In this document: positions 11,360 to 40,006 of the stretch, one piece after another | How positions within the stretch are numbered: the stretch's first letter is position 1 | How the letters are laid out: each line of letters opens with the position of its first letter | Assembly (NCBI GenBank): GCA_016874185.1 | Contig: VGUW01000002.1 | Location: 1-40,037, forward strand | DNA length: 40,037 bases | From: Gammaproteobacteria bacterium | Lineage (GTDB): Bacteria; Pseudomonadota; Gammaproteobacteria; Comchoanobacterales; Comchoanobacteraceae | Direction: 5' to 3' | Notes under the pieces: generated by a model | What the model was told of the DNA's origin: nothing | Databases searched by the model: none | What the model saw: only the letters and a program-made list of their open reading frames with translations | Program-made: the position numbers and the translations under genes

Positions 11360-11366
11360 GAAATTA

Positions 11367-13404: not shown

Positions 13405-13407
13405 ATC

Positions 13408-16366: not shown

Positions 16367-16368
16367 AT

Positions 16369-17151: not shown

Positions 17152-17155
17152 TGCT

Positions 17156-18141: not shown

Positions 18142-18146
18142 GATCT

Positions 18147-20302: not shown

Positions 20303-21183
20303 CTACTACATTTATGCCAACTCTTGATCTTGCGCGCAAACTCATAGCCGAGCAATTTCCTGAGTATGCTCGTTTACCTATCGTTGATGTTGAAAAACAG
20401 GGGCATGACAACCGCACCTATAGGCTCGGCGAGCAAATGCTCATTCGTATACCAACAGCCGCAGATTACGCTTTAAAGGTGCCTAAAGAACAAGAACTAC
20501 TGCCGAAACTCGCAAAACCTTTAAGCGTTAACATTCCGGCTCCGATTAAAATGGGAAAGCCATCGACAGATTATCCTTATCCATTTTCTATATACAAATG
20601 GTTGTCTGGAAAAAGTATCAATTTGCTGACGTTGACCGATCAAGAAAAAGAACAACTTGCTTCCGATCTCGCCAAGTTTTTAAAAGAACTACAAGCGATT
20701 ATCGATATTGAAGGTCCTGAGCCAGGTCAGCATAACTGGTGGCGTGGCGACCACGTCAGCGTTTACGATAAAGGCGCCAGAGAACAAATTGCAGAGCTGA
20801 CTGAAATCATAGATGCTGGGCAAGCGCTTAGCTTATGGGATAAGGCAAGTGCTACGAGATGGAACAAACAACCAATCTGGATTCATGGAGATTTTGCGAT
20901 TGGCAATATACTCATGGATAGCGGCAAACTCTCCGCAGTCATTGACTTTGGTGGTGCCGCCGTCGGTGATCCTGCCTGCGATCTTGTCATTGCATGGACG
21001 TATTTGAGCGGTAAAGCTCGTGAAATTTTTATATCAAAAATGGATATGGATGAAGATACATGGCTCCGAGCCCGTGCCTGGGCACTTTGGAAAGCGACGT
21101 TTGAGCTATGCCAAATAGAAGATAAAAATAGCCCTGAGGCTAGTTTACAAAAACGAATTATTGATGAGGTTATGAATGCCTAA
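20299..21183 (+). CDS. aminoglycoside phosphotransferase-family kinase
   Basis: 294 residues of APH/choline-kinase fold. Nucleotide-lobe strands appear in GHDNRTYRLGEQMLIRIPTA, the catalytic loop is WIHGDFAIGNIL (HGD then Asn) and the metal motif VIDFGGAAVGDPACDL. All the catalytic residues are present, so it should be an active small-molecule kinase. The family includes aminoglycoside and macrolide phosphotransferases as well as sugar kinases. It overlaps both neighbours (4 and 8 bases). Confidence 0.87.
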   Translation: MTTTFMPTLDLARKLIAEQFPEYARLPIVDVEKQGHDNRTYRLGEQMLIRIPTAADYALKVPKEQELLPKLAKPLSVNIPAPIKMGKPSTDYPYPFSIYKWLSGKSINLLTLTDQEKEQLASDLAKFLKELQAIIDIEGPEPGQHNWWRGDHVSVYDKGAREQIAELTEIIDAGQALSLWDKASATRWNKQPIWIHGDFAIGNILMDSGKLSAVIDFGGAAVGDPACDLVIAWTYLSGKAREIFISKMDMDEDTWLRARAWALWKATFELCQIEDKNSPEASLQKRIIDEVMNA

Positions 21184-22600
21184 GAAAAAATCAGAAAATA
21201 GTGAATTAACATTAAGAGAGCTGTTAATAGCTACAAATCACGAAAAGCTTGTCGATATATTATTATCATTACATGAGAGCAATCATGATGTAGGTAAGCA
21301 GCTCGATATCATTTTTGCAGGTCTAGATGATGATCCTAAAAAAATAGTCAGCATGATTAAAAAGGAAATCGCATCTCTTAAAAGATCTTCAAAATTTGTC
21401 GACTATTACGAATCTGATTCTTTGGCAGATCGTTTAAATGACTTGCGTTTGAGGATTGCGGGCGATTTGAATGCTAAGTCTCCTAAGATCGCTTTTGAAA
21501 TGATGCTTGATTTTCTAGATCTGCATAAAAATACCCTCGAGCGGGTTGATGATAGTAATGGCACGGTCAGCGGGGTATTTTTTACCGCTTGCGATGACCT
21601 CGGTTTGCTTGCTGGGCACATTAACCACCTAAATAATCAAGAAATCGTAGAAATAGTTTTCGCTCGGTTCATGAATAATAATTACAGCATTTACGACGGT
21701 ATTATTCAAAGTTTTAAGGACATTTTAAAAGATCAAGGCTTTGATTTACTTAAAGAAAAACTGGAGCATGTAGTAAATGATAAAAATGCTTTTACTATAA
21801 AACATGGCCTCAAGTCTATTGCGGATTGTAAAAATGACGTTGACGAATATATTGCTGCCTGTGCATTTAAAGACGGTATTTGTGCCCATGATCATTTGGA
21901 TATAGCTAAAAGACTTATCAAACATTGGCGTCCAAAAGAAGCGCTCAAGTGGTTAGATGATATGGAAATACCTATCAATCATTCTTGGCAACAAGATAAA
22001 AAAGACTTAAAAATACAAGCCTTAGAATTAGATGGAAATTATGAACAAGCTCAAAAAGAGCGTCTATTATGGTTTTCTGAAACCTTGAGCCCCAAAATTT
22101 ATGGGGAAATTTTAAAAGCTGCAAAACCAGATTTTAAAGAAACCTTTCAATCAGATGCTATAAAAAAAACATTTCAATTCCCAGAACCACATGGGGCCTT
22201 GAGTTTTTTAGTCCAGATACAGGAATTTGAAGAGGTAGCAAAATTCGTACATGCTAGGTTTGATGAATTAAATGGAAGGCAATATTACACGTTAAGGCCT
22301 GCTGCAGATTTGCTGCAAAATACCGATCCTATTGCAGCTACGCTCCTTTATAGAAAAATGATCGAACCAGTTTTAGATGAAACAAAATCGAAATATTATA
22401 ATTATGCAGCAAAAGATCTTGTAACATGTGGTGTTTTAAATTTTAAAATAGCAAACTGGGGCACGCTACAAAATCATGAGGAATATTTAAAAGCCATCGA
22501 AATAAAGCATAAAAGAAAAGTAAGTTTTTGGGCTGAATATAAGTCTGCTTTGCAAAAACAAGCTGCCAAAGAAGCAAAAATGGTGAGAAGCAGTGTATGA
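21176..22600 (+). CDS. DUF6880-like helical-repeat protein
   Basis: 474 residues, mostly alpha helical, without membrane segments or catalytic motif that I recognise. The N-terminal pattern (LRELLIATNHEKLVDILLSLHES, LADRLNDLRLRIAGDL) and the later TPR-like helices (CAFKDGICAHDHLDIAKRLI, RPKEALKWLDDMEIP, YEQAQKERLLWF) resemble DUF6880 proteins, which are of unknown function. Superhelical repeats suggest a scaffold or protein-binding role. It overlaps the APH gene by eight bases and TspO by four, so it belongs to the operon. Confidence 0.65.
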   Translation: MPKKKSENSELTLRELLIATNHEKLVDILLSLHESNHDVGKQLDIIFAGLDDDPKKIVSMIKKEIASLKRSSKFVDYYESDSLADRLNDLRLRIAGDLNAKSPKIAFEMMLDFLDLHKNTLERVDDSNGTVSGVFFTACDDLGLLAGHINHLNNQEIVEIVFARFMNNNYSIYDGIIQSFKDILKDQGFDLLKEKLEHVVNDKNAFTIKHGLKSIADCKNDVDEYIAACAFKDGICAHDHLDIAKRLIKHWRPKEALKWLDDMEIPINHSWQQDKKDLKIQALELDGNYEQAQKERLLWFSETLSPKIYGEILKAAKPDFKETFQSDAIKKTFQFPEPHGALSFLVQIQEFEEVAKFVHARFDELNGRQYYTLRPAADLLQNTDPIAATLLYRKMIEPVLDETKSKYYNYAAKDLVTCGVLNFKIANWGTLQNHEEYLKAIEIKHKRKVSFWAEYKSALQKQAAKEAKMVRSSV

Positions 22601-23082
22601 ATCAAAGCATTAAAAACCAACTCTCTTTAATCATCTGGGTCGTGGCGATTATCGCAATTGGAGGAGTCATTGGGTCTTTAACGAAGCCGGAGATTAGTGC
22701 TTGGTATAGCACCTTACATCGCTCCCCCGTGACACCGCCAAATTATATATTTCCAATAGCTTGGACTATTTTATACGGCATTATTGGTGCCTGCGGCTGG
22801 CTTATTTGGCGCCATCAAGCCTTTTCTAAGCTCAGTGTTATCAAAACATTATACATGACCCAGCTCATCTTAAACTGGAGCTGGACACCTTTGTTTTTTC
22901 ATTACCACTTAACCGGACTTTCCCTTGTAGTTTTAGTTGCTATGGATATTCTGGTCTGTGCGCTCATTTGGCTAGCTTATAAAAAAATGAGAGCAGTATC
23001 GCTGCTGATGATTCCTTATCTGTCATGGATTCTATTTGCAACTTACTTAAACTTTTACATATGGTGTGATATCACATATTGA
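22597..23082 (+). CDS. tspO: TspO/MBR-family tryptophan-rich sensory protein
   Basis: 161 residues with five hydrophobic segments, the TspO plan. Diagnostic motifs: GSLTKPEISAWY then LHRSPVTPPNYIFPIAWTILY, LNWSWTPLFFHYHL, and YLSWILFATYLNFYIW at the end. TspO binds porphyrins and other aromatic ligands in the membrane. It is the last gene of the MarR operon, ATGA-coupled to DUF6880, and its 3' end overlaps the convergent pdxY gene by 11 bases. Confidence 0.92.
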   Translation: MNQSIKNQLSLIIWVVAIIAIGGVIGSLTKPEISAWYSTLHRSPVTPPNYIFPIAWTILYGIIGACGWLIWRHQAFSKLSVIKTLYMTQLILNWSWTPLFFHYHLTGLSLVVLVAMDILVCALIWLAYKKMRAVSLLMIPYLSWILFATYLNFYIWCDITY

Positions 23083-23911
23083 TTATTTTCGGCAGTAATC
23101 TTTGCTCTACATTTTTATATTCCACAGCCAACACTTGTAACTCCCTTTCGCCAGCTTCAATCGTTTTCTCAATGGCAGATTGCAAATAAAATGTTGCGTA
23201 TTGTAGCGCTAACCCAATATCATTATATTGTAGATATGCACCTAAGAATGTGCTTGAGAATAAATCCCCTGTTCCGCTAATTGGAATATTAAAATGATAT
23301 TCTGGACTAGTTACTATATAGCTTTGTTGTCCATCAGATGCAAAAATATCCAAATTTACATCATCCCCTAACTTCACACCAGTTATCACAACAATCTTAA
23401 TTTTCAACTTATGAAAGTAATGAGCAACTGCTATGAGATCTTGTCTGGTATTAATATTAATACCAGATAAAACTTCAGCCTCATATTGATTAGGCGTAAT
23501 GATATCTGCACTTAATTCATTCTTAAAAAAATCCAACACTTCAGGTTTTACATAACAGCTGTTATTTCCTATTACAGGATCACATAAATATATCAGGTTA
23601 TGATTAATTGCTTTAAATTTCAATACAATCTCTTTTACAGCTTCGCATATTGCTCTACTTCCCATATATCCACTTAATATTGCAGTACATTTATGAGCTT
23701 GTCCGATATCGAATATGCCATCAACCAAACTTATAATATGCTCTTTAGAGAAAATTTCTCCTTGCCATTTCCCATAACCAGTATGGTTAGAAAACTGCAC
23801 GGTATTAATAGGCCAAACATCAAAGCCTATAGTTTGCAATGGGTAAACAGCCGCTTTGTTTCCTACGTAACCGTACGTCACATGTGATTGAATAGAGAGA
23901 ATACTTTTCAT
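23072..23911 (-). CDS. pdxY: pyridoxal kinase PdxY
   Basis: 279 residues from the ATG at 23911, which overlaps the stop of the upstream gene as TAATG. It is a ribokinase-fold vitamin B6 kinase: SIQSHVTYGYVGNKAAVYPLQ at the start, NTVQFSNHTGYGKWQG, YLCDPVIGN, DIITPNQYEAEVLSG, and the anion-hole motif PISGTGDLFSSTFLG with the catalytic Asp. It phosphorylates pyridoxal to PLP. The adjacent DUF2608 HAD gene is translationally coupled. Confidence 0.93.
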   Translation of the reverse strand: MKSILSIQSHVTYGYVGNKAAVYPLQTIGFDVWPINTVQFSNHTGYGKWQGEIFSKEHIISLVDGIFDIGQAHKCTAILSGYMGSRAICEAVKEIVLKFKAINHNLIYLCDPVIGNNSCYVKPEVLDFFKNELSADIITPNQYEAEVLSGININTRQDLIAVAHYFHKLKIKIVVITGVKLGDDVNLDIFASDGQQSYIVTSPEYHFNIPISGTGDLFSSTFLGAYLQYNDIGLALQYATFYLQSAIEKTIEAGERELQVLAVEYKNVEQRLLPKIINM

Positions 23912-24648
23912 TAGTTGCTCCAATCGTAGCAGATATTAGCCAAGGCCTCATTATTTGACGGAATGCTATCATGAGATAACGCATACTGCCATTGATAATC
24001 TGCAATAACATCTAATTCTTTCTGATTGTAATCGCAAAACAATTTTGCTTTAGCCTCTGTAAAATGCACTCCATAAAATTGGATATTAGATGGCACAGCA
24101 TCTCCAACTTCTTGCAAATTTTTTAATGTATCATCTACGAATAAAATAGAAGTTATATTTTTAAATTGCTCTGTTTCAAGCAAGTTATTTAAAAATTCGC
24201 CTTTGTTATTTGATTTGGCAGTATCTTTATTATATCCAACATATATTATTCCATCATTTATATTTTGATGAAAGCTGTGATCAAGCTTCGAAAACTTCAT
24301 ATTACTGCTTTTTATCGCAGTGTTTGTTTCCGAAGCAAAAGAAATAATCCTAGCTGTAAAACCAAGCACTGGTTTTATTTTCGCTAAATACGACATATCA
24401 TCAATCAAATTCGCATTCACTGCTTCATAATCAGTTTTGTTCATGCAAGAATAAAAGTCTTTAATAAGGTTATGAGGAGTGAGCACGTATTTTTTCACAG
24501 TATGATACCTACCATACCAAGAGCTACTGCATAAATACTGTTTTGGGGTTATTATGACATCATCTATATCTAGCAAAACTAAATCAACGTTTTTTGTAAT
24601 ATTTATGATCCATTGCTTATTGTATAGCGCCATAGTTTGTATAGACAT
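23911..24648 (-). CDS. DUF2608 HAD-like protein
   Basis: 245 residues. LVLLDIDDVIITPK (about 23-36) gives the HAD DxD motif, GFTARIIS supplies the second motif region, and SILFVDDTLKNL the acidic fourth motif. The overall pattern matches DUF2608, which occurs mainly in Legionella, Chlamydiae-type and Rickettsiales-type intracellular bacteria. There is no clear signal peptide in this copy. A phosphatase activity is likely; the substrate is unknown, although overlap with pdxY hints at B6-phosphate metabolism. Confidence 0.72.
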   Translation of the reverse strand: MSIQTMALYNKQWIINITKNVDLVLLDIDDVIITPKQYLCSSSWYGRYHTVKKYVLTPHNLIKDFYSCMNKTDYEAVNANLIDDMSYLAKIKPVLGFTARIISFASETNTAIKSSNMKFSKLDHSFHQNINDGIIYVGYNKDTAKSNNKGEFLNNLLETEQFKNITSILFVDDTLKNLQEVGDAVPSNIQFYGVHFTEAKAKLFCDYNQKELDVIADYQWQYALSHDSIPSNNEALANICYDWSN

Positions 24649-24678
24649 AAATTTTTACCAAACATTTTAGAATGACTT

Positions 24679-25590
24679 TTATTTGCTCTTATATATTATG
24701 TTTAATTGCTTGTCAAATTGGAACGTCGTCACTTCAAGGATTCTGATTAGCTCTTCAAAATAGCCTGCATCACTACCATCCTCTATTACCCACACCCAGC
24801 TAAGCACAGCTTGCACAAAACACCAATCAAGGATTCGCTGCGATGGTAATTCAAGGAGCTCAGCAAATCGAGTGACGCGATTATGAATAATATTTGGCGC
24901 ATCAGCATGGGTTAGTAATTCTGGCCTTGGATTTCGAATAAAATCAGCCACTTCATAAGCTGGTTCGCCAACCACACCTTTGGGATCAATCACCACCCAA
25001 TCATCACCATTTTGCAAAATATTATCATGGCGGAGATCGCCGTGGAGTAGAACATCCAGCTTAGAAGTTTGTAACAGCTCATCTCGGAGCTTTTTTGCTT
25101 TTTGCAGATAATGATTTGGAATATTCCAATCCTTATCCAATGCCGTAAGCCAATCTTTAATATGAGGGAATGTGTGATCTTCAGGAATATTTGCTTGATG
25201 CAGCTTTTTCATAACCCCGCAGGCAATTTCGATGGATTCCTGTTCTTTATCCGGAAAGTAGCTTTTAACGAATGCGCCGGGTACTGCTCTTTCGAAAAGC
25301 AACATTCCATTAGCTTCGACAAGCACCTTCACTGCGCCACAGCCTACAAAGCACTTGAGCGCAAATGCTTCTCGAGCTAGTGCCTCATTATCAAGTCCCA
25401 GTTTTAAAATGATAGGATTACCGGCCTGCAATCCTGACAGCACATAGTTGTATGTAAGATTTGTGACTTCTTTTAAATCACGTAAATTCAGCTTTGAAGA
25501 TATTGCCGTAACAATCCCCGGCAGTTCATCTAGCCACGCTTTGCCTTTTTCTCCGTAAATGTTGATGAGGTTGGAATGGAAGGGGTTCAT
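24679..25590 (-). CDS. APH(6)/streptomycin 6-kinase-like phosphotransferase
   Basis: 303 residues. The C-lobe holds LLHGDLRHDNILQNGDDWVVIDPKG with GEPAYEVADFIRNPRPEL, the hallmark of the aminoglycoside/hydroxyurea resistance kinase family (APH(6), streptomycin 6-phosphotransferase). All catalytic residues are present (HGD, Asn, IDPKG). These enzymes phosphorylate streptomycin. It is ATGA-coupled to the upstream GNAT gene and forms, with AbiE, the third minus-strand gene set. Confidence 0.85.
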   Translation of the reverse strand: MNPFHSNLINIYGEKGKAWLDELPGIVTAISSKLNLRDLKEVTNLTYNYVLSGLQAGNPIILKLGLDNEALAREAFALKCFVGCGAVKVLVEANGMLLFERAVPGAFVKSYFPDKEQESIEIACGVMKKLHQANIPEDHTFPHIKDWLTALDKDWNIPNHYLQKAKKLRDELLQTSKLDVLLHGDLRHDNILQNGDDWVVIDPKGVVGEPAYEVADFIRNPRPELLTHADAPNIIHNRVTRFAELLELPSQRILDWCFVQAVLSWVWVIEDGSDAGYFEELIRILEVTTFQFDKQLNIIYKSK

Positions 25591-26138
25591 TTGGCATACT
25601 CATCAGCACTTAATCTATACATAAAATGATGAGACAGTTTATGATCAGCCGCAAGTTTTGGATGAGCAAAATCACCGTTTAAATCTCGTTTTAAGCCTAT
25701 CTTTTCCATGATTCTTAAAGACCTAACATTTGCAGGCACCGTAAAAGAAACGATTGCTTTAAGGCAACATTTCTTAAATCCGTATTTCAAGGAAGCTTCG
25801 GCGCCTTCTGTGGCATAGCCTTTGCCCCAATACTGAGAGCCAAGTCTCCAGCCCACCTCGACTGCTGGGGTAAAATTGGATTCCCAATCAGTGTAATTGA
25901 GACCGATAAAGCCCATCAATTCCTCAGTTTCCTTTAGGCAAGCAGCCCATAACGTATAACCATGTTTATCTTGATGACTATTAACAGCAGGTATGAAATC
26001 ATTCACTTGCTCCATAATTAGCGCCTTAGGTAAAAATTCTATCACTTTTAGATCTTGGTTGATTTGGAAATAGGGATCTGCGTCCTCTTTTCTCCAAGTT
26101 CTTAAAATAAGCCTTTCTGTTTCAATAATGGTGGTCAT
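25587..26138 (-). CDS. RimJ/RimL-type GNAT acetyltransferase
   Basis: 183 residues. ETERLILRTWRKEDADPYF at the start is characteristic of the RimJ/RimL subgroup. The acetyl-CoA loop is GSQYWGKGYATEGAEA and NVRSLRIMEKIGL is the terminal motif. It begins 32 bases after the AbiEii stop and is coupled to the APH(6)-like gene, which suggests a drug-modification pair carried with the toxin-antitoxin module. Confidence 0.88.
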   Translation of the reverse strand: MTTIIETERLILRTWRKEDADPYFQINQDLKVIEFLPKALIMEQVNDFIPAVNSHQDKHGYTLWAACLKETEELMGFIGLNYTDWESNFTPAVEVGWRLGSQYWGKGYATEGAEASLKYGFKKCCLKAIVSFTVPANVRSLRIMEKIGLKRDLNGDFAHPKLAADHKLSHHFMYRLSADEYAK

Positions 26139-26170
26139 ATAGCCTCGTTATATTCATGTTAATTTTTTAC

Positions 26171-26956
26171 CTAAAGCATTTTGCTAATCACTTTATCCAC
26201 AACAAAAGTGTAGGCTTCATCGAAATCCCAATGCAATTTAGATGGTAACAAAACACTCATGTCCATGTTAAAGTCCCGGTGACTTTTTTTAAGTTCAAGA
26301 TTCTTTAAGAATTCTTCGCGCATGATCTTCACATTGTTATAACGGCAATACTGATAAAAAATATCAAAAACCTGCTCTAGGTTGATTAAGTTGTGATCTG
26401 CTACATACCATATATCAAATAAATCTCTTCCTTTACGTCGCTGATAAAGAGCGCGCAATTTAGTTGCCATTAGTTCATCAAGTTCATAAGTAATTATATC
26501 TGTAGCACCTGTGAACCAAGGCGAATCCATAGAGAAAGCTACTGTTTTTAAAGGTAATACATGCAAGTGCTCTGTTGTATTGATCTCAATTTTTAGCTTT
26601 GCTGGAATTTTATTCATAGATTCGTATTTGTAGATCAGCTTGGCGCTACGCTGGGTAATCTTCCAGCTAGGATCGCCTAACCATGGTTTTAATACGGCTC
26701 TGATAGCATCAATCGTCTGCCCAATTGGATCAGCATTTTTTTGCACAAAATCCAGATCTTCACTATACCTCGCCGGAGGATTGATGAATAATTTGTTTAG
26801 TGCTGTACCGCCACGAAAAACAAGAGCTTCCTTGATATTTGGTTCATTGTACAAATCAATCAAAGCGCGGCTGATCATTAAATCTTGTTGTATTTGTTCG
26901 CTCATTTGCCATGGAACGATTTTGCGCCAATTTTCAATAAAAACTTCTGGAATCAT
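26171..26956 (-). CDS. abiEii: AbiEii-type nucleotidyltransferase toxin
   Basis: 261 residues. Nucleotidyltransferase fold with FRGGTALNKLF (G-G-T motif) and RYSEDLDFVQK (the acidic DxD), followed by LKIEINTTEH and ATKLRALYQRRKGRDLFDIWYV, the four conserved AbiEii motifs. AbiEii is the toxin of a type IV toxin-antitoxin phage-abortive system. ATGA overlap with the antitoxin gene upstream. All motif residues are intact, so it looks functional. Confidence 0.92.
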   Translation of the reverse strand: MIPEVFIENWRKIVPWQMSEQIQQDLMISRALIDLYNEPNIKEALVFRGGTALNKLFINPPARYSEDLDFVQKNADPIGQTIDAIRAVLKPWLGDPSWKITQRSAKLIYKYESMNKIPAKLKIEINTTEHLHVLPLKTVAFSMDSPWFTGATDIITYELDELMATKLRALYQRRKGRDLFDIWYVADHNLINLEQVFDIFYQYCRYNNVKIMREEFLKNLELKKSHRDFNMDMSVLLPSKLHWDFDEAYTFVVDKVISKML

Positions 26957-27759
26957 AAATCACTCTCAATTTCTGAATTTTCAATAATTCTCCATTTTTT
27001 ACACCATGGATACCCTGTTTTTGAGATTTCGGATGCAAGAGGCAGATAGTTTGGTTTATTTTCCTGGACATACTGAGCAAGAGCATCAATTATTATTTTG
27101 GAACTATCTTCATCCATAATATCAATGTGCTCTATGATGTAACCAATACGCTGTAACTGACATTCTGTGTGGGTATCTTTCGCAAGATTGATTAGCTTTA
27201 TGGGGTCTAGTGCTGGGGCAAGCTCAGAAAAAACAGTTGCGATGTGATTTAAGCCACCTGCATGATTAGGGTACTGAAGTAAATCAAGAGCAACCAATTC
27301 AGGGGTTGCCACCTTAAGGTAACCGGTGCTCATAGTAAAATCTTGAGTGGGCAATTCAAGCACGGATTTTTTATAAATATAATCAATTTCCACATCGCCA
27401 AAAGCTGATGGATGTTTAATGCGTTTGTCTGATATCACCTGGAATCTAGCAGGCTTCTGATGAGTCGCCCCATGAAACAACCCCGCAGTTAGAAGTGCGA
27501 CATAATAATTGGCGCCCAAATACTGCATGACCAAAGGCACCAATTCTTGGGGAGGGATAGAGCCATGCGGTTGATGTTCTGGTGGGACAATAACATATAA
27601 ACCTCTCGCCGGTGAGATCAGATCTCCTGTTTTAAGTAACCTATGTAAGGCTACTCTCGCATGACCATTTGAAACATGAAATTGCCCCGTAATATCTAGG
27701 GTGGTAAAGTAGCGTTTACCATCCTTTCGTATATTTTTTATGTATGATTGCAAATTCAT
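26953..27759 (-). CDS. abiEi: AbiEi-type antitoxin and autoregulator
   Basis: 268 residues. N-terminal winged-helix DNA-binding region (FTTLDITGQFHVSNGHARVALHRLLKTGDL then GLYVIVPPE) followed by the AbiEi antitoxin domain (PQELVPLVMQYLGANYYVALLTAGLFHG and VIEHIDIMDEDSSKI). In known AbiE systems the winged helix binds inverted repeats in the promoter and represses the operon, while the C-terminal part counters the toxin. The operator repeats upstream agree with this. Confidence 0.92.
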   Translation of the reverse strand: MNLQSYIKNIRKDGKRYFTTLDITGQFHVSNGHARVALHRLLKTGDLISPARGLYVIVPPEHQPHGSIPPQELVPLVMQYLGANYYVALLTAGLFHGATHQKPARFQVISDKRIKHPSAFGDVEIDYIYKKSVLELPTQDFTMSTGYLKVATPELVALDLLQYPNHAGGLNHIATVFSELAPALDPIKLINLAKDTHTECQLQRIGYIIEHIDIMDEDSSKIIIDALAQYVQENKPNYLPLASEISKTGYPWCKKWRIIENSEIESDL

Positions 27760-32311: not shown

Positions 32312-32452
32312 TTAAATGTTTAACCACTTTATCAGCTCAGCATCAAAATTCTCAGAATCTTCAAATTGAGGTGTATGACTGCTTTTTTCAAAAATGCGGA
32401 CGGTGAGATTTGCTGGATAAGTTAGAAGCTTGCCAAAAATATTGAGATTGAA
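32312..32452 (-). pseudogene. C-terminal remnant of an alpha/beta hydrolase gene
   Basis: A 46-codon open frame on the minus strand ends in a normal stop and reads TVRIFEKSSHTPQFEDSENF and then LIKWLNI. This is the characteristic C-terminus of proline iminopeptidase-like alpha/beta hydrolases, including the catalytic His (SSHTPQFE). The frame is closed by TAA at 32453-32455 and the rest of the gene is absent; the promoter of the second ABC-F gene now occupies that place. It marks a deletion or replacement breakpoint. Confidence 0.65.
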
Positions 32453-32476
32453 TTATTTTCTAAAATAGAGTACTAT
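32448..32476 (+). promoter_or_regulatory. predicted promoter of the second ABC-F gene
   Basis: TTGAAT (32448-32453), 17-base spacer, TACTAT (32471-32476). Same spacing as the promoters at 928 and 2205. The leader would be about 145 bases. Confidence 0.5.
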
Positions 32477-32487
32477 GTGAACATAGT
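32472..32487. promoter_or_regulatory. operator-like palindrome over the ABC-F promoter
   Basis: ACTATGT-GA-ACATAGT, perfect seven-base arms, overlapping the -10 box. A repressor bound here would block RNA polymerase. No similarly perfect site was seen elsewhere in the window. Confidence 0.5.
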
Positions 32488-32523
32488 GTGTCAAAAAAAT
32501 CAATTTGAGGTTTTGTCCGTATC

Positions 32524-32541
32524 ATGAAAATTATCTCTTAA
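32524..32541 (+). CDS. five-codon leader ORF (MKIIS) upstream of second ABC-F
   Basis: ATG AAA ATT ATC TCT TAA. Preceded by GAGG at 13 bases and aligned with the MKIIL ORF at 2269. A ribosome stalled late on it would cover the first arm of the leader stem (GCCCT at 32546). Confidence 0.5.
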   Translation: MKIIS

Positions 32542-32627
32542 AGTAGCCCTACAAAGGGCATAAGACCAAAGCTCTTTAAGCTTACGTCTCAATTCGTTAT
32601 AGCCCTAAATACTTTAAAGAGATTCAT
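32542..32627 (+). promoter_or_regulatory. attenuator-like leader with sequestered ribosome-binding site
   Basis: Arm 1 GCCCT (32546-32550) pairs with AGGGC (32555-32559). CTCTTTAA (32572-32579) pairs perfectly with TTAAAGAG (32614-32621), hiding the AAAGAG ribosome-binding site. Alternatively AGGGCATAA (32555-32563) pairs with TTAT-A-GCCCT (32597-32606). That helix crosses the ribosome-binding-site stem, so the two exclude each other. This is the logic of erm-type translational attenuation. Confidence 0.6.
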
Positions 32628-34049
32628 ATGATACATAAACCGATTCAGATCAAAAATCTTCAGCTGTCCTTCCCGCATAAAACCTGTTTTGACGATTTTA
32701 GTGTGCAAATCCCTTATGGTAGCCGTATTGCCATTATTGGTCGTAACGGGTGTGGAAAAACGACGCTACTCAAAATATTGAATGGCATGGTGGAACCTAC
32801 AAGTGGTGATGTCTTAAGTGCAGCTGATGTGATTATTGGCTTTGTTCCTCAAATTGTTGAAGAATTTGATTCGTTAAGTGGTGGGCAGCGCTTAAATGCG
32901 GCAGTGTCGCAAGCATTGAGCCTTAAACCCAATATTTTGCTGCTCGATGAGCCCACCAACCATTTAGACAGACATAATCGTAAAAGCCTGATGCGAATGT
33001 TGCAATCTTATCCTGGCACACTCATTGTGGTGTCTCATGATACCGAGTTACTGCGTCATTGCATTGATACCCTATGGCATATCGATAATGGGCAAATCCG
33101 TGTATTTTCCGGCAAATACGATGATTATATTCGCGAAATACGCAAAGCTAGATCCTCCTTAGAGCAAGAAATAACACGCCTCGATCGGCAAAAAAAAGAT
33201 ATGCATCATGCTTTAATGAAAGAGCAAAAACGAGCTGCTAAAAGCAAAGCCAAGGGTGAAAAAAGCATTCACCAAAGAAAATGGCCCACGATTGTAAGCA
33301 CAGCCAAAGCCGGTAGAGCTGAAGAAACCTCTGGCCGCAAAAAATCTGCCATCGATCATAAAAAACAGGATTTAACCGATCAACTTTCCAATCTGCGCCT
33401 ACCTGAAATTATTGTGCCAAAATTTTCGCTAAATAGTGCAGATATTGGCGATCGAACGATTGTATCGATTAGTGACGGCAGTGTTGCCTATGCGGAGCAA
33501 GAGCCTCTACTTCAACAAATCAGTCTATCAATAAGCTCTAGAGATCGTATCGCCATACAAGGTGATAATGCCAGCGGAAAATCAACCTTGATTAAGGCAA
33601 TTATGGATGATGCTTGTGTTATAAAATCGGGCAACTGGTATGCGCCTAAGATCAGTGATATTGGGTATTTGGATCAGCATTACGGTACCTTGTCTGCGGA
33701 AAAGACTGTATTAGAGACCATTGCTGAATTGGTGCCAAATTTGTCCCATATTGAAGTACGTCGTCACTTGAATGATTTTTTATTTCGTAAAAATGAAGAG
33801 GTCAATGCCCTTGTGAGCACGCTTTCCGGTGGTGAAAAAGCAAGGCTCAGTTTGGCACAAATTGCAGCCAAAACACCCAAACTTCTGATCCTCGATGAAA
33901 TCACCAACAACCTTGATTTAGAGACGAAAGACCACATTATACAGGTTTTGAAATCTTATCCCGGTGCGATGATCGTCATATCGCATGATGCTGATTTTCT
34001 GGAAGAGATAGGAATTAATGAGGCGGTGAATGTTGGGAAATTTAAGTGA
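32628..34049 (+). CDS. ABC-F ATPase, antibiotic-resistance type (second copy)
   Basis: 473 residues, paralogue of the gene at 2381. NBD1 has Walker A GRNGCGKTT, signature LSGGQRLNAAV and Walker B LLLDEPTNHLD. The linker contains HHALMKEQKRAAKSKAKGEK and KWPTIVSTAKAGRAEETSG. NBD2 has GDNASGKST, LSGGEKARLSLAQI and LLILDEITNNLDLET. This copy has a more complete NBD1 than the first (it keeps NGMVEPTSGDVLSAADV after Walker A). The expected role is displacing ribosome-targeting drugs. A stretch of 56 bases is identical to the first copy, see findings. The 3' end overlaps the convergent VOC gene by eight bases. Confidence 0.86.
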   Translation: MIHKPIQIKNLQLSFPHKTCFDDFSVQIPYGSRIAIIGRNGCGKTTLLKILNGMVEPTSGDVLSAADVIIGFVPQIVEEFDSLSGGQRLNAAVSQALSLKPNILLLDEPTNHLDRHNRKSLMRMLQSYPGTLIVVSHDTELLRHCIDTLWHIDNGQIRVFSGKYDDYIREIRKARSSLEQEITRLDRQKKDMHHALMKEQKRAAKSKAKGEKSIHQRKWPTIVSTAKAGRAEETSGRKKSAIDHKKQDLTDQLSNLRLPEIIVPKFSLNSADIGDRTIVSISDGSVAYAEQEPLLQQISLSISSRDRIAIQGDNASGKSTLIKAIMDDACVIKSGNWYAPKISDIGYLDQHYGTLSAEKTVLETIAELVPNLSHIEVRRHLNDFLFRKNEEVNALVSTLSGGEKARLSLAQIAAKTPKLLILDEITNNLDLETKDHIIQVLKSYPGAMIVISHDADFLEEIGINEAVNVGKFK

Positions 34050-34431
34050 TGGAATTTTTAGAATAAACAGCTTCGATATTATGGCCATTGGGATCAATCA
34101 CAAAAGCTGCATAGTAGCCCTCTTCATACTCTGGCCTAAAACCAGGTTTACCATTACATTTTCCACCACCATCAAGGGCGTTGTTATAAAATGCATCCAC
34201 ATTTTCTTTGCAAGAAGCATTAAAGGCAATATGAACGTGCTGCGATAAAGGTGACTTTTCATCAAATTGACGTATTTCAAACATATCATGAACGCTTGTT
34301 CCATACCCTATGACAACATCATTTATTTCCAGAACAACTTGGTATCCTAAAGCGGCCATAACAGGGTCGTAGAATTTTCGGCTTCTGTCTAAATCTTTGA
34401 CTTTAATTTGGACGTGGTTAAAAAGTTTCAT
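34042..34431 (-). CDS. VOC/glyoxalase-family protein (full-length)
   Basis: 129 residues, complete counterpart of the start-less gene at 4901. KLFNHVQIKVKDLDRSRKFY at the N-terminus supplies a probable metal-ligand His6; GYGTSVHDMFEIRQF, HVHIAFNASCKENVDAFY and DPNGHNIEAVY follow. A single VOC module pair makes up the protein, as in small glyoxalase/bleomycin-resistance-type dimers. ATGA-coupled to the P-loop kinase upstream; convergent with ABC-F. The role, probably detoxification, is inferred from the neighbours. Confidence 0.85.
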   Translation of the reverse strand: MKLFNHVQIKVKDLDRSRKFYDPVMAALGYQVVLEINDVVIGYGTSVHDMFEIRQFDEKSPLSQHVHIAFNASCKENVDAFYNNALDGGGKCNGKPGFRPEYEEGYYAAFVIDPNGHNIEAVYSKNSIT

Positions 34432-34994
34432 TGCACTTTCTCTAAAATAAATTCACATCTCTGTATAACCGTCAGCTCTTTGGGTACCATCATGATGTCA
34501 AAGCCAAACTCTTTATACACATCCAGATGAATCTGCTCAAAAATCAAAGCATCTTCATAAGAAATTTTTCTGGCGTCAGTATGTTCGATAAACCCTAGAT
34601 TTTCAAAAAAGAATATCTGGTTCTGGTAAACGCCGTTTTTTAGGCAACGATCAATTTCATCAAGCAATACAGGCGAAGGCTTAAATTCTAGGCCTTTCCA
34701 ATGGGCCAAATATTTACCAAGAGCATAGGTGCAAAAAGGTGACCGGTCGTAAAACTGGATATTTCCGGTAGAATGCATCTGGCGCTCTTTTTGCATAAGT
34801 GTAATTTTATCGACAAACTCAGGCTCTTCCCATGGCTTTTCTATGCCCTTAGCTTGCTCTGTGCTGATTACGTCCGTTGCGGCTTCATAAATAACAGCAT
34901 AGCCTGATTTTTCTAGCTTTTTTAGACAAGAGGTTTTTCCACTACCTGGAGTGCCGGTGAAGATGAAGCGTTTTATCTGTGCTGGATTATTCAT
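34428..34994 (-). CDS. P-loop AAA/NadR-like kinase
   Basis: 188 residues. Walker A FTGTPGSGKTSCL (12-24), then YAVIYEAATDVISTEQAKG with the substrate-binding region, and FYDRSPFCTYALGKYLA for the DRS-type switch. This is the AAA_28 family of small ATPases/kinases related to the NadR kinase domain. The ligand is unknown. ATGA overlaps join it to the OXA gene upstream and to VOC downstream. Confidence 0.8.
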   Translation of the reverse strand: MNNPAQIKRFIFTGTPGSGKTSCLKKLEKSGYAVIYEAATDVISTEQAKGIEKPWEEPEFVDKITLMQKERQMHSTGNIQFYDRSPFCTYALGKYLAHWKGLEFKPSPVLLDEIDRCLKNGVYQNQIFFFENLGFIEHTDARKISYEDALIFEQIHLDVYKEFGFDIMMVPKELTVIQRCEFILEKVQ

Positions 34995-35788
34995 TTTTCA
35001 AGCTCGTTAATGAGATACCAAAGCTTATTTAAAGCTTCATTTCTAGCTCTAAATGATGCAAAAATATTTTGTTTTTCATCATCTGTGATGTGACTCGCAA
35101 ATACAATTTTTCGATTGCCTTTTTCGATATAGCCAACAAACCACCCATGCTGCAAATCTGTTTTATTGTCATCTTTATCTCTTAATAACCCATTTCCGGT
35201 TTTGCCATAAAGCTTCCAACCGCCTGACAGCTCTTGTATAAACATGATTTTTTTAGTTTTGTCATAGCTCGCTTTGCTGACTGGGAGTTTGTGATCTACC
35301 AATTTTTGTAAAAATATAGTTTGTTCTTCAGGTGATATCTTGAGTGAGCTAGATAATATCCAAGCATGTGTCAGACCATTGTTTTGACCTTTGTCTCCTG
35401 AAACGTCCATATTGCCATAAGCAAATTTTGTTACATAATCCTGGAACTTTTCTGACCCTAGCTTAGTAGTTAAAATCCGTGAATACCATAAGCAACTATC
35501 TCGCAGCCAAGTTTTGGGATTGTGGTCGCCTTTACAAACACTGATATAATGATCTGTTCCGGTTGGCAAAGACCACGATGGGTGCGTTTCGTCTTTTAAG
35601 ATTCCAGAATCAAACCCTATTAAACTCAAAGCAATTTTAAATGTAGATTCAGGCGTATAAGGAACAGTACAATCACCTTCACTTTGTAAAATCTTACTGT
35701 TTTCCTTTGCTATAAAACATTGCTCCTTCGCCCATGCAGAACCAGCGCATAGAACGATGAAGCACAAAAATAAAACAACTTTCTTCAT
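34991..35788 (-). CDS. OXA-type class D beta-lactamase, variant (second of tandem)
   Basis: 265 residues with a signal peptide (about residues 1-20, ending AWA). Motifs: S48-T-F-K51 nucleophile and carbamylated Lys, YGN 124-126, KTG 196-198, and the OXA-1-like GDKGQNNGLT. The second motif reads S98-C-L, not the usual S-x-V. One residue is inserted after the conserved Trp (AWILSSSL versus AWLSSSL). Either change could affect the active site. Periplasmic, hydrolyses beta-lactams if active. Starts four bases after the first OXA gene. Confidence 0.85.
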   Translation of the reverse strand: MKKVVLFLCFIVLCAGSAWAKEQCFIAKENSKILQSEGDCTVPYTPESTFKIALSLIGFDSGILKDETHPSWSLPTGTDHYISVCKGDHNPKTWLRDSCLWYSRILTTKLGSEKFQDYVTKFAYGNMDVSGDKGQNNGLTHAWILSSSLKISPEEQTIFLQKLVDHKLPVSKASYDKTKKIMFIQELSGGWKLYGKTGNGLLRDKDDNKTDLQHGWFVGYIEKGNRKIVFASHITDDEKQNIFASFRARNEALNKLWYLINELEK

Positions 35789-35791
35789 AAC

Positions 35792-36601
35792 TTAACCTTT
35801 ATTTGAATTTTCAATTTGTTCAATAAGCGGTAGCAATTTCTCTTTGACCTGTTCTTTAGCTCGAGGACCGGCATGCTTTTCTTCTTTTTTATCGTCCACT
35901 ATATGATTAACAAAGATGATTTTCTTATCGCCTTTTGCAATCCAGCCAATAAACCAACCATGCTTTATTTCAAACTTTTGCGTTCTGTCCGCGTTTAATA
36001 GGTAACCACTTCCTGTTTTGCCATATAACTTCCAGCCGTGAGGAAGGTCTTCAACATAAACAATATTTCTTGTCATATTTTGGGCATGCCTGCTGACTGG
36101 TAATTTATTTGCAAGCAATTTTTCCAAAAAGACGACCTGTTCCTCTGGTGATATTTCCAAAGAACTAGAAAGCCATGCATTTGTAAGTCCATTATTTTGG
36201 CCTTTATCACCAGAGATATCTTGATTGCCATAATTAAATTCTTTCACATAATCTTGAAATTTCTTCATGCCAAGCTGCGGAGTTAAAACCTGCGAATACC
36301 ATACACAGCTATTTTTCATCCAACTCGTTGGATTCTGATGATCTTTCCAAGATTCTAGGAATGCTTCATACTCAGGTTTAAACGGCCACTCGGGATGCAT
36401 TTCATCTTTTAAAATACCAGCATCATACCCCATGAGAGCTAAAGCTATTTTAAAAGTTGAACAAGGAGAGTAACGTATATTGCAATCGCCTTCTCGTTTA
36501 ATAACAACACTGTTGTCCTTGGCTATAAAACAGCTTCCAGCAGCAAAAGGTGTGTTTACGGAGAAGATCATTGAACATAACAATAAAACAACTTTTTTCA
36601 T
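35792..36601 (-). CDS. OXA-1-like class D beta-lactamase (first of tandem)
   Basis: 269 residues with a cleavable signal (residues 1-20, PFA-A). All class D motifs are canonical: S48-T-F-K, S98-C-V, Y124-G-N, W143, K195-T-G. The GDKGQNNGLTNAWLSSSLEI segment closely follows OXA-1/OXA-29-type enzymes. Periplasmic penicillinase/cephalosporinase activity is expected. It lies within the minus-strand operon and is followed by a tandem paralogue. Confidence 0.92.
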   Translation of the reverse strand: MKKVVLLLCSMIFSVNTPFAAGSCFIAKDNSVVIKREGDCNIRYSPCSTFKIALALMGYDAGILKDEMHPEWPFKPEYEAFLESWKDHQNPTSWMKNSCVWYSQVLTPQLGMKKFQDYVKEFNYGNQDISGDKGQNNGLTNAWLSSSLEISPEEQVVFLEKLLANKLPVSRHAQNMTRNIVYVEDLPHGWKLYGKTGSGYLLNADRTQKFEIKHGWFIGWIAKGDKKIIFVNHIVDDKKEEKHAGPRAKEQVKEKLLPLIEQIENSNKG

Positions 36602-36608
36602 AATTTAC

Positions 36609-37295
36609 CTATTTTTTAATTAATCCAACGAGTCTTACTGGTGCTTCTGTGCCATCTTTAATTTTAATGGGCATGACCATAACAAAGCTTCCGGTCGGTG
36701 GTATACTACCCAGATTTGCTACATTTTCTATGATTATCTTATCCGCACCTAAAAAGGCTTTATGAACGTTAAAGCCATCTTCGGGGCGATCGGGTGAAAG
36801 TGTATCAATACCAATGGCGCTTACGCCTCGTTCAACCAAAAGCTCTGCAGCCTCAGAGGATACGGATGGGAACACATGGTTGTTATGATATTTCGAAGGT
36901 GTATGCCAAAACTTGCTCCAACCGGTTTTAACCATCACGCATGAGCCAGCTGCGATCTTGCCATACTTGCTTTCAAAATCCCCTACATCTTGCACGCTCA
37001 AGGAATAACGCTCAAAGCATTTACCGGATACATCAATCACCACGCACGGCATTATCAAATCATTGACATCAAAATCATGGATGAATCTCCCGCCAGGAAT
37101 GCAGTGGCTTGGCACATCCATATGCGTGCCGATTCCCGCGTGCATTGCCACTTTCATGACACGGAATTTATATTCACCTTCACAATCAGAATAATCGATA
37201 TGCACGTCATGATTAAACCCGCACCCACCATTCCAGGTAGGGATAGTGCTATCAAGTGCGTGGGTTAAGTCGATAAGTTTATAGGGGAAAGTCAT
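36609..37295 (-). CDS. cyclase family protein (kynurenine formamidase-like)
   Basis: 228 residues. The metal-binding motif HAGIGTHMDVPSH (HxGTHxDxPxH) lies near residue 52, with LIDLTHALDSTIPTW at the start, GWSKFW and GIDTLSPDRPEDGFNVHKAFL later. Family members (PF04199) hydrolyse formamides or cyclise polyketide-like substrates. It overlaps the VOC gene upstream by ATGA. The operon context suggests modification of small compounds. Confidence 0.85.
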   Translation of the reverse strand: MTFPYKLIDLTHALDSTIPTWNGGCGFNHDVHIDYSDCEGEYKFRVMKVAMHAGIGTHMDVPSHCIPGGRFIHDFDVNDLIMPCVVIDVSGKCFERYSLSVQDVGDFESKYGKIAAGSCVMVKTGWSKFWHTPSKYHNNHVFPSVSSEAAELLVERGVSAIGIDTLSPDRPEDGFNVHKAFLGADKIIIENVANLGSIPPTGSFVMVMPIKIKDGTEAPVRLVGLIKK

Positions 37296-37729
37296 CGGGC
37301 ACTCTCTTCTAGATGACCATTGTCATCTTTCGGTCCCGGCCAGAAAAAGGGGTTGTGGGCAACCTCCCATAAATGTCCGTCAAGGTCAGTAAAATATCCA
37401 GAAAATCCACCCCATTCAGTTTTCTGAGCTTGCTTTACAATATGAGCACCGGCACTTTTAGCTTGCTCCAAGATATCTGTAACCTGATTTTCGTTTTCAA
37501 CATTATGCGCTAGCGTGATCCCTCTAAAACCAGAGGAAGCAACATCTGTTTGCGCATCTTGAGCTAATAATTCCCATGGATAAAGCGATAACCAGCTGCC
37601 GTTAAGCATGAAAAAGCTGATATTGCCTTCAAAATCCATTTTCGTAAATCCAAGCCCTTCTTTATAGAATCTTGTAGCTTTAGTTAAGTCTTTTGTTCCT
37701 AAAGTAATAATATTAATTCTTGGCTTCAT
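37292..37729 (-). CDS. VOC-family protein (glyoxalase-like)
   Basis: 145 residues. Typical VOC pattern: INIITLGTKDLTKATRFYKEGLG at the N-terminus, ISFFMLNGSWLSLYPW in the middle, and GGFSGYFTDLDGHLWEVAHNPFF with the second metal-type site at the C-terminus. Members include glyoxalase I and bleomycin-resistance proteins. It is not closely related to the other two VOC genes here. Coupled to cyclase by ATGA. Confidence 0.86.
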   Translation of the reverse strand: MKPRINIITLGTKDLTKATRFYKEGLGFTKMDFEGNISFFMLNGSWLSLYPWELLAQDAQTDVASSGFRGITLAHNVENENQVTDILEQAKSAGAHIVKQAQKTEWGGFSGYFTDLDGHLWEVAHNPFFWPGPKDDNGHLEESAR

Positions 37730-37739
37730 TTTTTAACTC

Positions 37740-38264
37740 CTATCTTAATTTCTTCGTAAACCACAGCACCAGGTCATCATCAAGCGGATAGCTGTTACCT
37801 GGAATCGTGGGTTCATAATTATAAGTAACGCCTTTTCCGTCAGGGATATAGCCACGTTTGATATAAAGTCTTTGAGCAGCTCCATAGCCTCCATCTTCTC
37901 CTGCATAGAGACCAACACCAATGCCAATAATTTGGCTTTTCGTTGCAGCTTCTTTTTCAGCACGATCAAGCAGTAAGGAGCCAATACCCATTTTTCGCAT
38001 ACAAGGTAATACCTTTAAATCCATAATCTCCGGGATGCTTTGTGCTTTAAATGACGGATATTGTGATTGCCATTTTAAGGTCACATAACCGGCAAATTCG
38101 CCCTTGAAGTGAGCCACCCAAACAAGTCGCTCTCCTGATTCTTGTTCCTTTAAATATGCTTCGAAAAGCGATGGCGGTTTATTCCAGCCGATTTGGTTAA
38201 AAGCTTCAGATATAGCTGCAATATCTTCTCTTATAAGGGGACGAATTTGAATCTGATTCTTCAT
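37740..38264 (-). CDS. GNAT N-acetyltransferase
   Basis: 174 residues. IQIRPLIREDIAAISEAFNQ start, FAGYVTLKWQSQYP, acetyl-CoA loop LPCMRKMGIGSLLLDRA and the AQRLYIKRGYIPD terminal motif are all present. ATGA overlap with the APH-GrpB-GNAT gene, whose last codons supply the AAGGTG ribosome-binding site, the same joint used by the GrpB-GNAT copy at 6810. Confidence 0.88.
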   Translation of the reverse strand: MKNQIQIRPLIREDIAAISEAFNQIGWNKPPSLFEAYLKEQESGERLVWVAHFKGEFAGYVTLKWQSQYPSFKAQSIPEIMDLKVLPCMRKMGIGSLLLDRAEKEAATKSQIIGIGVGLYAGEDGGYGAAQRLYIKRGYIPDGKGVTYNYEPTIPGNSYPLDDDLVLWFTKKLR

Positions 38265-40006
38265 AACACCTTACCCACCGGAACATCATTTGGATCAGAT
38301 TCATGGTTTTCGGGATCATTAAAAGGCATTTCTGTATAGCCGTTTTTGAGATAGAACCTTAGACTGCTTTGCCTAGATTCAGCATGAATGCTTTTAATAC
38401 CTAAACTTCTCAGCCATTTCTCTATAAGCGTCAAAAATACGCTAGCAGAATTTTGATTTCGCTTATTCTCATCAGTAGCAATAATACGAATTGCCGCTCT
38501 TTGATCTGGCCAAAACTGAATATGAGCGTAAGCGACGATCTCTGTGACTTGATATAAAACAAGATGAGCATGCTCTTCATGGTTAAATGTCCATGTATAA
38601 GGATCTTCTATGCCATTGGGGCCAAAGAAATAGGTGTCGCGGAAATGTTTAGCCACAGTCCATTCAGAGTGATGTGTACATAGCACAAATCGGCGCTTAT
38701 TAAAGCCAGACTTTTTTAAGATATTTTGGATAAAGTCATGCTTACCCAAAGTATATCCTCTGTAAATAGAGTTGTTTTTCTCATGGGAAGATTCTTCTGC
38801 AATCAGTTTATATTTAAGCAGCGCATATTCATCTCTAGCGCTAGGGGTCTCGCGCAAATGATCCCTAAACAAAATATTTAATTCAATTTCAGGATCGTTT
38901 TCTTCAAAAACGTGAAGATTAATATTTCTATCAGCTGTTCTTATTGTGAAGCTTCTTCGGAGAGGAATATTAAAACCACCCTTATATTTATATCCTATAG
39001 CCTCTAATTGTGATTTATCAAAAACCAAATTTCGTACAACTGCGATAATGTCTATCTTAGGCTTAGCCGCCAAACCTGGCACCGAAGTCGAACCGACATG
39101 ATGAATAGCAACGCAGTTATCAGCTAATGCTTTTTTAATGAGAGCCGCCTCAGCTTCAAATATATTTGGCCAATTGGCGTCATAGGGTTTAATTTCAACA
39201 CGATCTATTTTTTGCATGTTATTTAACTCTGATAAGATATGATCTATAAGTTCGTGAATATCAGCGCATCTGCTCGGGTGACGTTGAGGGTCCGATCGTT
39301 TAAGAAGGTCAAGCAACGATGATAAATTTAATAAATGTGCAGTTGTGCGCCAATCGGGGGGCAATTTGATAGCATTTCTTTGCAAGGCATCTATAAATGA
39401 GTTCTGGAATTCAGGCGGCATTTTATGGGCGTATCTGAGCATGTTAGCCACATCCCAAAGGTAAGACCCAGAAAAAGCAAATTCCCAGTCCAAAATGCCG
39501 GTGACAACCCAAGAGTCGTTAATTTTATCTACCAAAATATTGGCGGGATCAAAGTCACCATGAACGAGGTGCTTTTCATCGTCAGTGGAAAATAAATATG
39601 CATATTGCTTTATAGCTTTTTTGATTTCATCAATCATCTCAGGCGATAGCACAGATACTACAGTTCTGTTATTCAAGCAATCCTGTGCAAACTTTATGAC
39701 ATCAGAGGATTCGTATGGGACCACCTCCAAATCTTTGTTCAAAAAGTCAGATTTTGAAAATTCATATGCTGTGATTTTTGAGAGAATCATACCCACCTCA
39801 GTCATGATTGCCCTCAGATCATGCGGGACATCGCCCAGTAAAAAATCTCGAAGAGATATGCCAGGCATAAATTCTGTAATCGCAAAGTGATGCCCTTCAA
39901 GTTCGCCGATATAATGCGTTAGCGGTATAGGTGCAGTTTCTTTGATTAATGCGGCTAATTTTTGTTCTCTGTAAGCAGCATCTTTATCGCGCAAATAAAT
40001 ACGCAA
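38261..40006 (-). CDS. APH-GrpB-GNAT three-domain fusion, 5' end disturbed at window edge
   Basis: 581 residues from a TTG at 40006. Residues 1-265: APH kinase (FAITEFMPGISLRDFLLG hinge, HLVHGDFDPANILV catalytic loop, GILDWEFAFSG). Residues about 273-430: GrpB/UPF0157 (IKPYDANWPNIFEAEAALI, HHVGSTSVPGLAAKPKID). Residues about 440-581: GNAT. The last two domains parallel the gene at 6810, but the acetyl-CoA loop is RNQNSASVF in place of RNQSFGSRF. Upstream of the TTG the frame stays open to a TAA at 40028-40030, and the bases beyond read on in another frame, so an upstream frameshift or true TTG start is possible. Confidence 0.8.
   Translation of the reverse strand: MRIYLRDKDAAYREQKLAALIKETAPIPLTHYIGELEGHHFAITEFMPGISLRDFLLGDVPHDLRAIMTEVGMILSKITAYEFSKSDFLNKDLEVVPYESSDVIKFAQDCLNNRTVVSVLSPEMIDEIKKAIKQYAYLFSTDDEKHLVHGDFDPANILVDKINDSWVVTGILDWEFAFSGSYLWDVANMLRYAHKMPPEFQNSFIDALQRNAIKLPPDWRTTAHLLNLSSLLDLLKRSDPQRHPSRCADIHELIDHILSELNNMQKIDRVEIKPYDANWPNIFEAEAALIKKALADNCVAIHHVGSTSVPGLAAKPKIDIIAVVRNLVFDKSQLEAIGYKYKGGFNIPLRRSFTIRTADRNINLHVFEENDPEIELNILFRDHLRETPSARDEYALLKYKLIAEESSHEKNNSIYRGYTLGKHDFIQNILKKSGFNKRRFVLCTHHSEWTVAKHFRDTYFFGPNGIEDPYTWTFNHEEHAHLVLYQVTEIVAYAHIQFWPDQRAAIRIIATDENKRNQNSASVFLTLIEKWLRSLGIKSIHAESRQSSLRFYLKNGYTEMPFNDPENHESDPNDVPVGKVL

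Follow-up and report, generated by a model that had tools for sequence, protein, structure and literature searches.

How the production of a predicted ribosome-protection protein could be governed by an open reading frame (ORF) of only five codons is the question raised by a leader found in a stretch of DNA of 40,037 nucleotides, the whole of which is referred to below as the window. In the first instance, this leader was viewed in the first-pass annotation as an ermC-type translational switch, where an 8-base stem hides the ribosome-binding site (RBS) of an ABC-F gene until a ribosome stalled on the mini-ORF allows an alternative helix to form. Inducible control of ribosome-protection ABC-F genes by upstream ORFs (uORFs) has already been described in Gram-positive bacteria; a literature search, with subscription papers and preprints outside its reach, returned no report of such uORF control for Legionella or other intracellular Gram-negative bacteria.

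Elements of the leader and the gene they precede

The mini-ORF (ATG AAA ATT ATC TCT TAA, encoding MKIIS) occupies positions 32524-32541 of the forward strand, on which all the leader elements described below also lie, and is located 86 nt 5' of the ABC-F gene, the start codon of which is at 32628. It is preceded by a GAGG Shine-Dalgarno (SD) sequence (32507-32510) spaced 13 nt from the ATG, and GAGG, AGGT or AGGC likewise precedes most mini-ORFs in homologous leaders. This spacing (32507-32523 in the window, and 11-13 nt at many loci) is longer than usual, but GAGGTTT is nonetheless well conserved. Further upstream, the candidate promoter TTGAAT-17-TACTAT (32448-32476), with a -10 element 47 nt before the mini-ORF, is weak, with 8 of 12 consensus matches, and does not figure among the matches of a consensus promoter scan with a threshold of 9/12. 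In the leaders of relatives, the top promoter score is 9.9 vs 8.5 in shuffles, and the -10 element lies at a median of 42.5 nt before the mini-ORF.

From the mini-ORF to the ABC-F gene, several complementary segments can be discriminated, namely (i) the anti-RBS arm A, ATCTCTTAAAGTA (32533-32545), made of mini-ORF codons 4 and 5, the stop codon and 4 nt beyond, (ii) the hairpin B-C (32546-32559) directly 3' of the mini-ORF, with GCCCT (32546-32550) facing AGGGC (32555-32559), (iii) arm D, CTCTTTAA (32572-32579), an exact 8-base complement of TTAAAGAG at 32614-32621, (iv) B', TTATaGCCCT (32597-32606), which can pair with C, AGGGCATAA (32555-32563), and (v) A', TACTTTAAAGAGAT (32610-32623), i.e., the RBS region of the ABC-F gene, whose SD, AAGAG, is weak. 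All the parts listed in the first-pass annotation, i.e., the mini-ORF, the GCCCT/AGGGC hairpin, the 8-base match and the segments of the alternative helix, are thus present within 32524-32627. An SD, a mini-ORF and 8 bp of Watson-Crick complementarity with the pre-start region occurred together in 3 of 3000 dinucleotide-resampled leaders and in none of the 38 sequences preceding the other genes in the window. A search of the leader against Rfam brought nothing relevant, the single weak match being a TrxA thermometer on the opposite strand, far below the cut-off.

The gene itself (32628-34049, forward strand) encodes a protein of 473 aa which, judging from its sequence relatives and predicted fold, is an ABC-F of the ARE type with a predicted role in resistance, and the earlier gene call is thereby borne out. 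The NCBIfam model for ribosomal protection-like ABC-F proteins is matched with 363.8 bits, just under the curated cut-off of 380, the solved structures nearest by sequence are VgaA-LC and VgaL, and the top of a fold search is held by VmlR2, VgaL, PoxtA and VgaA-LC with modest TM-scores (0.58-0.61). The structure predicted from 22 homologues (mean pLDDT 82.6, pTM 0.60) comprises two ATPase domains and a long helical hairpin, where the interdomain helical linker (164-215/225-254) carries a tip, RKWPTIV, that is well conserved in the family. A second ABC-F gene (2381-3781, forward strand, 466 aa), a paralogue 71% identical to the first, has a mini-ORF of its own, MKIIL (2269-2286, forward strand), within a match to the leader covariance model R1 (2251-2392, E 7e-6). 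The window further harbours, in a genome of 1.15 Mb, a dense cluster of resistance-type genes (12347-27759 and 34042-40006), including a chloramphenicol phosphotransferase-like gene, GNAT acetyltransferases, two APH kinases, two class D beta-lactamases, two Fos-like glyoxalases and an AbiEi antitoxin domain.

Conservation and covariation of the pairing with the RBS

Relatives were gathered from Holospora, an Odyssella MAG, Legionellaceae and other MAGs as well as conjugative Legionella plasmids. The short ORF first noticed in the window is a recurrent feature, since 103 of the 107 ABC-F upstream regions, mainly from Legionellales together with Holospora-type and other gamma- and alphaproteobacterial genomes, possess a mini-ORF of 5 or 6 codons, placed 53-120 nt before the ABC-F gene at the loci listed; among these 107 regions, it is absent from Burkholderia glumae (L012), L046 and L111. 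Relatives also come from 10/369 genomes of the window's class and from 75/143 genomes of the order of a Legionellaceae MAG, and the leader covariance model finds matches in 64/143 genomes of the latter order, 10/339 of the window's class and 7/385 of the Holospora class. The initial guess of a Gram-negative host holds by inference, with one genome of the window's class (G194) and one of the Legionellaceae MAG's order (G475) reporting a match at the identical place; the genome of the window would accordingly belong to the class of Legionellaceae. When set against positions 32440-32640 of the window, Holospora obtusa (L006), a member of another class, shows an almost identical leader and gene, suggesting that the whole leader-gene module moved recently between intracellular bacteria. 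The ABC-F copies of L006, of the Odyssella MAG (L007) and of the SKS3 MAG (L009) contain in-frame stops, and their mini-ORFs are intact.

Regarding RNA folding, the region 32480-32650 reaches -38.9 kcal/mol vs -22.9 ± 3.65 kcal/mol for dinucleotide shuffles (z -4.4, 0/200). In the minimum-energy fold, arm A pairs with A' with one bulged A, which leaves the RBS region predicted to be almost fully paired with the mini-ORF, and the 8-base stem D-A' is not used in this resting structure. Over 60 non-redundant loci, the duplex between a mini-ORF and its own RBS has a mean energy of -13.15 kcal/mol, compared with -9.52 ± 0.35 kcal/mol for permuted partners (0/10,000), and swaps restricted to one length class attained the observed energy in 0/5000 cases for 5 codons and 1/5000 for 6 codons, these counts overstating independence as the loci are phylogenetically related, and the choice of the best helix favouring pairing.

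In an alignment of 32 sequences, the covariation score amounts to 0.184 vs 0.117 ± 0.011 (0/500), versions slid out of register giving 0.04-0.08; counted by cells, the double changes are above shuffles, but counted by pairs they are not. Coupled changes of arm and RBS can be followed from class to class, e.g., TCTTAA/TTAAGA, TCTCAA/TTGAGA and ACTCAA/TTGAGT, as well as in the double change ATTTCTTA/TAAGAAAT of L009, and on an ABC-F tree of 64 proteins, several positions require a minimum of 2-6 switches of pair type. The case for a covarying pairing between arm and RBS is made by the agreement of several tests, although relatedness and best-helix selection inflate each of them. In the covariation check across homologues, which the first-pass annotation had proposed, it is arm A that covaries with the RBS; as read from the alignments, the mini-ORF thus provides, with its own 3' end, the conserved partner to which the RBS is paired.

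Proposed ribosome occupancy of the mini-ORF and competing explanations

The consequences of a ribosome sitting on the leader were approached with a 30-nt mask slid along the sequence, in thermodynamic folds that ignore kinetics. The unpaired probability of the SD zone increases from 0.20 to 0.41 as the 3' edge of the mask shifts from +12 to +15, which is approximately how far a ribosome positioned at the AUG would extend; for vmlR, a distance of 16 nt separates the toeprint from the A of the start codon (PMC9226507). Averaged over the 60 loci, SD accessibility is 0.07 in the free leader, 0.12 with a control mask, 0.44 with the ribosome at the AUG and 0.52 with the ribosome at codon 5. In the window, the SD zone has an unpaired probability of 0.00 when free, and masking opens the RBS only partly (0.28 and 0.38). 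As such, the suggestion that a ribosome on MKIIS opens the RBS is supported in silico, any ribosome on the mini-ORF having this effect in the model, and an occupancy switch is favoured over one depending on a ribosome at the stop codon.

The conserved mini-ORF, its covarying pairing with the RBS, the AUG-to-arm distance, the ARE type of the ABC-F protein and the joining of leaders to exporters, all read from the sequences, are the material on which a mechanism can be proposed. The leader is predicted, with a good degree of confidence, to be a cis-acting translational attenuator based on ribosome occupancy, where a drug-held ribosome on the mini-ORF frees the RBS of the ABC-F gene. In the mRNA at rest, the mini-ORF would pair with the RBS through its final codons and its stop, keeping ABC-F translation low, and the small GCCC/GGGC hairpin would sit inside the loop of this arm-RBS helix. 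Ribosomes completing the five codons would open the helix only briefly. We infer that a drug holds the ribosome at the start or early codons and that induction ensues: the arm would then be covered, the binding site of the ABC-F gene would stay open and the ribosome-protection protein would be made. Should the ribosome also cover GCCC, GGGC could pair with the second GCCC beside the binding site, and in the window this would stop the back-up hairpin from closing that site. By analogy with cplR and vmlR, where the cognate drugs hold ribosomes at start codons, the first candidates and most likely inducers are inhibitors of initiation or of the first codons, namely lincosamides, pleuromutilins and streptogramin A.

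With regard to selection on the bases or on the residues, the mini-ORF has 5 codons at 45 of the 60 non-redundant loci and 6 at the other 15, and the helix spans mini-ORF nt 14-16 in 58/60, regardless of whether the stop follows 5 or 6 codons; with a third size variant of 3 codons (L080, MNN*, with a 10-bp arm ATTAATCTCA / TGAGATTAAT at nearly the same AUG distance), the position of the stop codon moves and the AUG-to-arm distance remains about constant. At codon 5, Ser is always TCT (41/41), Ala always GCT (10/10) and Thr always ACT (3/3), as expected if bases rather than residues are held. An alternative, which we regard as unlikely, is a peptide sensor resembling MsrDL and the erythromycin-resistance pentapeptides, where nascent MKIIS would sense a macrolide in the tunnel and block termination at UAA, the stalled ribosome then opening the RBS. 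MsrDL is itself a six-codon uORF (MYLIFM) ending in UAA before an ARE-ABCF gene, with stalling at this UAA for which L3 and I4 are required, and Leu or Ile at position 3 is critical in the erythromycin-resistance pentapeptides (PMC10314930). The length of 5-6 codons, a UAA stop in nearly all of the 60 mini-ORFs, Ile3 in 47/60, encoded synonymously by ATT, ATA and ATC, and Ile4 in 34/60 would fit such a sensor, and the Ile3 preference hints at a selection at the peptide level for which a pure occupancy switch has no need. Against it, residues vary widely (K/N/R/D/E at position 2, I/T/N at 3, I/T/N/L at 4 and S/A/L/T/P/H/F at 5), the stop codon shifts between classes while the arm stays in place, and the ABC-F protein scores nearer to Vga than to Msr. 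MsrDL acts in transcription attenuation by macrolide-blocked termination and differs in its other residues.

Since in the model the RBS is opened by whichever ribosome occupies the mini-ORF, it could also be kept open constitutively by ordinary translation of this ORF, without drug sensing. Such constitutive coupling is given a small probability, as a conserved and strongly covarying repressive helix combined with a very short ORF would be a costly arrangement for constant expression, and the resting RBS is predicted to be almost fully closed.

With respect to the ermC-type switch of the first-pass annotation, where the D stem hides the RBS and is displaced once GGGC pairs with the second GCCC, every segment exists in the window and masking codon 5 does let C-B' form and exclude D-A'. 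However, the 8-bp D-A' match is found in the window only, being reduced to 5 bp in L006 and missing from L007, the two closest relatives, and the D stem was consequently rejected as a conserved repressor; in folds of the window, it forms only when the mask covers arm A but not B. The topology argument was thus right for the sequence of the window, since D forms with arm A masked and the GGGC-GCCC pairing displaces it, and the folding check with masking did open the RBS, albeit partly, but the unmasked fold uses arm A in place of the 8-base stem. Among relatives, the B-C hairpin has 84.9% of cells paired, with an outer pair covarying between U-A and A-U (9 / 9), the GCCC..GGGC..GCCC triad is common and many leaders show GCCC, GTCC or CCC at the position of B'. 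For the C-B' helix, a low value is obtained when the p-values from shuffles are combined, but these stem from related loci and significance is not reached in the swap test; this helix, with such modest support, was set aside as the main switch and kept as a secondary element. The ermC attenuator shares a leader ORF, mutually exclusive hairpins and a hidden RBS with the present leader; it differs (see also PMC12121999) by a specific arrest motif, a separate downstream RBS hairpin and an rRNA methyltransferase as output. Here, no ErmCL-type arrest motif is visible in the mini-ORF, the residues vary widely, the output is an ABC-F protein or an exporter and the RBS partner is the mini-ORF. A ribosome on the mini-ORF would then open the RBS directly with no need for an ermC-type relay, and the ermC-type reading of the locus is regarded as very improbable.

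The least probable explanation, transcription attenuation as the main level of control, where a stalled ribosome would bypass an intrinsic leader terminator as in vmlR and msrD, can draw on U-rich terminator-like hairpins in the Legionella plasmid clade and in 8/10 exporter-joined leaders, but no intrinsic terminator was found in the leader of the window and only 10/60 ABC-F leaders have such a hairpin. In L010 and L167, from the plasmid and exporter clades respectively, the hairpin sits between GGGC and the second GCCC, and in these clades it is possibly a second, transcriptional layer, which in the Legionella plasmids could be an addition comparable to that of cplR. The leader terminator would be a common but not required feature, because drug control of cplR survives without the U-tract (PMC10201436).

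Exporter-joined leaders and comparison with known systems

Besides the ABC-F loci, about 20 matches to the covariance model lie away from intact ABC-F genes, nearly all of them in the order of the Legionellaceae MAG. At ten Legionellales loci among those retrieved (L161, L162, L164-L171), the ABC-F gene has been lost and an ABC exporter directly follows the leader, most of the ten retaining the first ABC-F codons; the exporter is 69-87% identical to the one that, on Legionella plasmids, overlaps the ABC-F gene at its end. Three further loci (L157, L159, L163) have a decayed ABC-F remnant between leader and exporter. Mini-ORF and pairing are preserved in 10/10 exporter-joined leaders, which indicates, at the level of sequence conservation, that the leader is maintained independently of the ABC-F gene. 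Outside ABC-F loci, the model matches pointed to no output gene other than the ABC exporter, the rest leading to ABC-F remnants, either decayed or partial; L184, a weak alphaproteobacterial match, has neither exporter nor ABC-F. On the Legionella plasmids (L010:2501-6416), the ABC-F gene is followed by the overlapping ABC exporter and then by an aminoglycoside nucleotidyltransferase-like gene. The window has an ABC exporter as well (9569-11407, reverse strand), 47% identical to the plasmid exporter, and the search with the leader model found no element ahead of it.

A broader reading, to which we would give slightly less than an even chance, is that the leader constitutes a portable, peptide-independent sensor of ribosome occupancy, where the AUG-to-arm distance would be tuned to the 15-16 nt that a ribosome held on the start codon can reach and any inhibitor of initiation or of the first codons could switch it on. 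Deletion of the ABC-F gene would have been the evolutionary route by which the leader passed from the control of target protection (ABC-F) to that of efflux (ABC exporter), across gamma- and alphaproteobacteria including intracellular lineages.

Considering the systems already described, the closest in logic is toiL, the uORF of topAI-yjhQP in the Gram-negative Escherichia coli, which likewise hides the RBS of the following gene, topAI, by base pairing with its own sequence and releases it when a ribosome is held at any place on the uORF (PMC12121999); compared by its logic only, toiL differs in having eight codons and a start 139 nt upstream, and in controlling a toxin-antitoxin operon instead of an ABC-F or exporter gene. 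Regarding the target, the leaders of cplR, vmlR, vmlR2, lsaA and vga(A) likewise place a very short uORF before an ARE-ABCF gene with a hidden main SD, and these Gram-positive uORFs tolerate residue changes, e.g., MIN, MDN, MDK, MR[I/M] and MK[L/Q]; those reported are, however, of 3-4 codons, and transcription termination is an additional feature of the vmlR and cplR leaders (PMC10201436, PMC9226507). In contrast, the mini-ORFs of the present family have 5-6 codons and themselves provide the anti-RBS arm, and the search for a terminator in the leader of the window found none. The best reading of the locus, predicted from sequence, is then a toiL-like logic applied to a vmlR/cplR-like target in Gram-negative bacteria.

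If this holds true, many bacteria in the order of the Legionellaceae MAG, where 64/143 genomes match the leader model, would carry a silent and possibly drug-triggered layer of resistance that annotation misses. The family would also provide a small natural system in which the respective parts of ribosome stall position and peptide in drug sensing can be tested, and the exporter fusions would represent a natural experiment where a regulatory switch was moved from one resistance mechanism to another.
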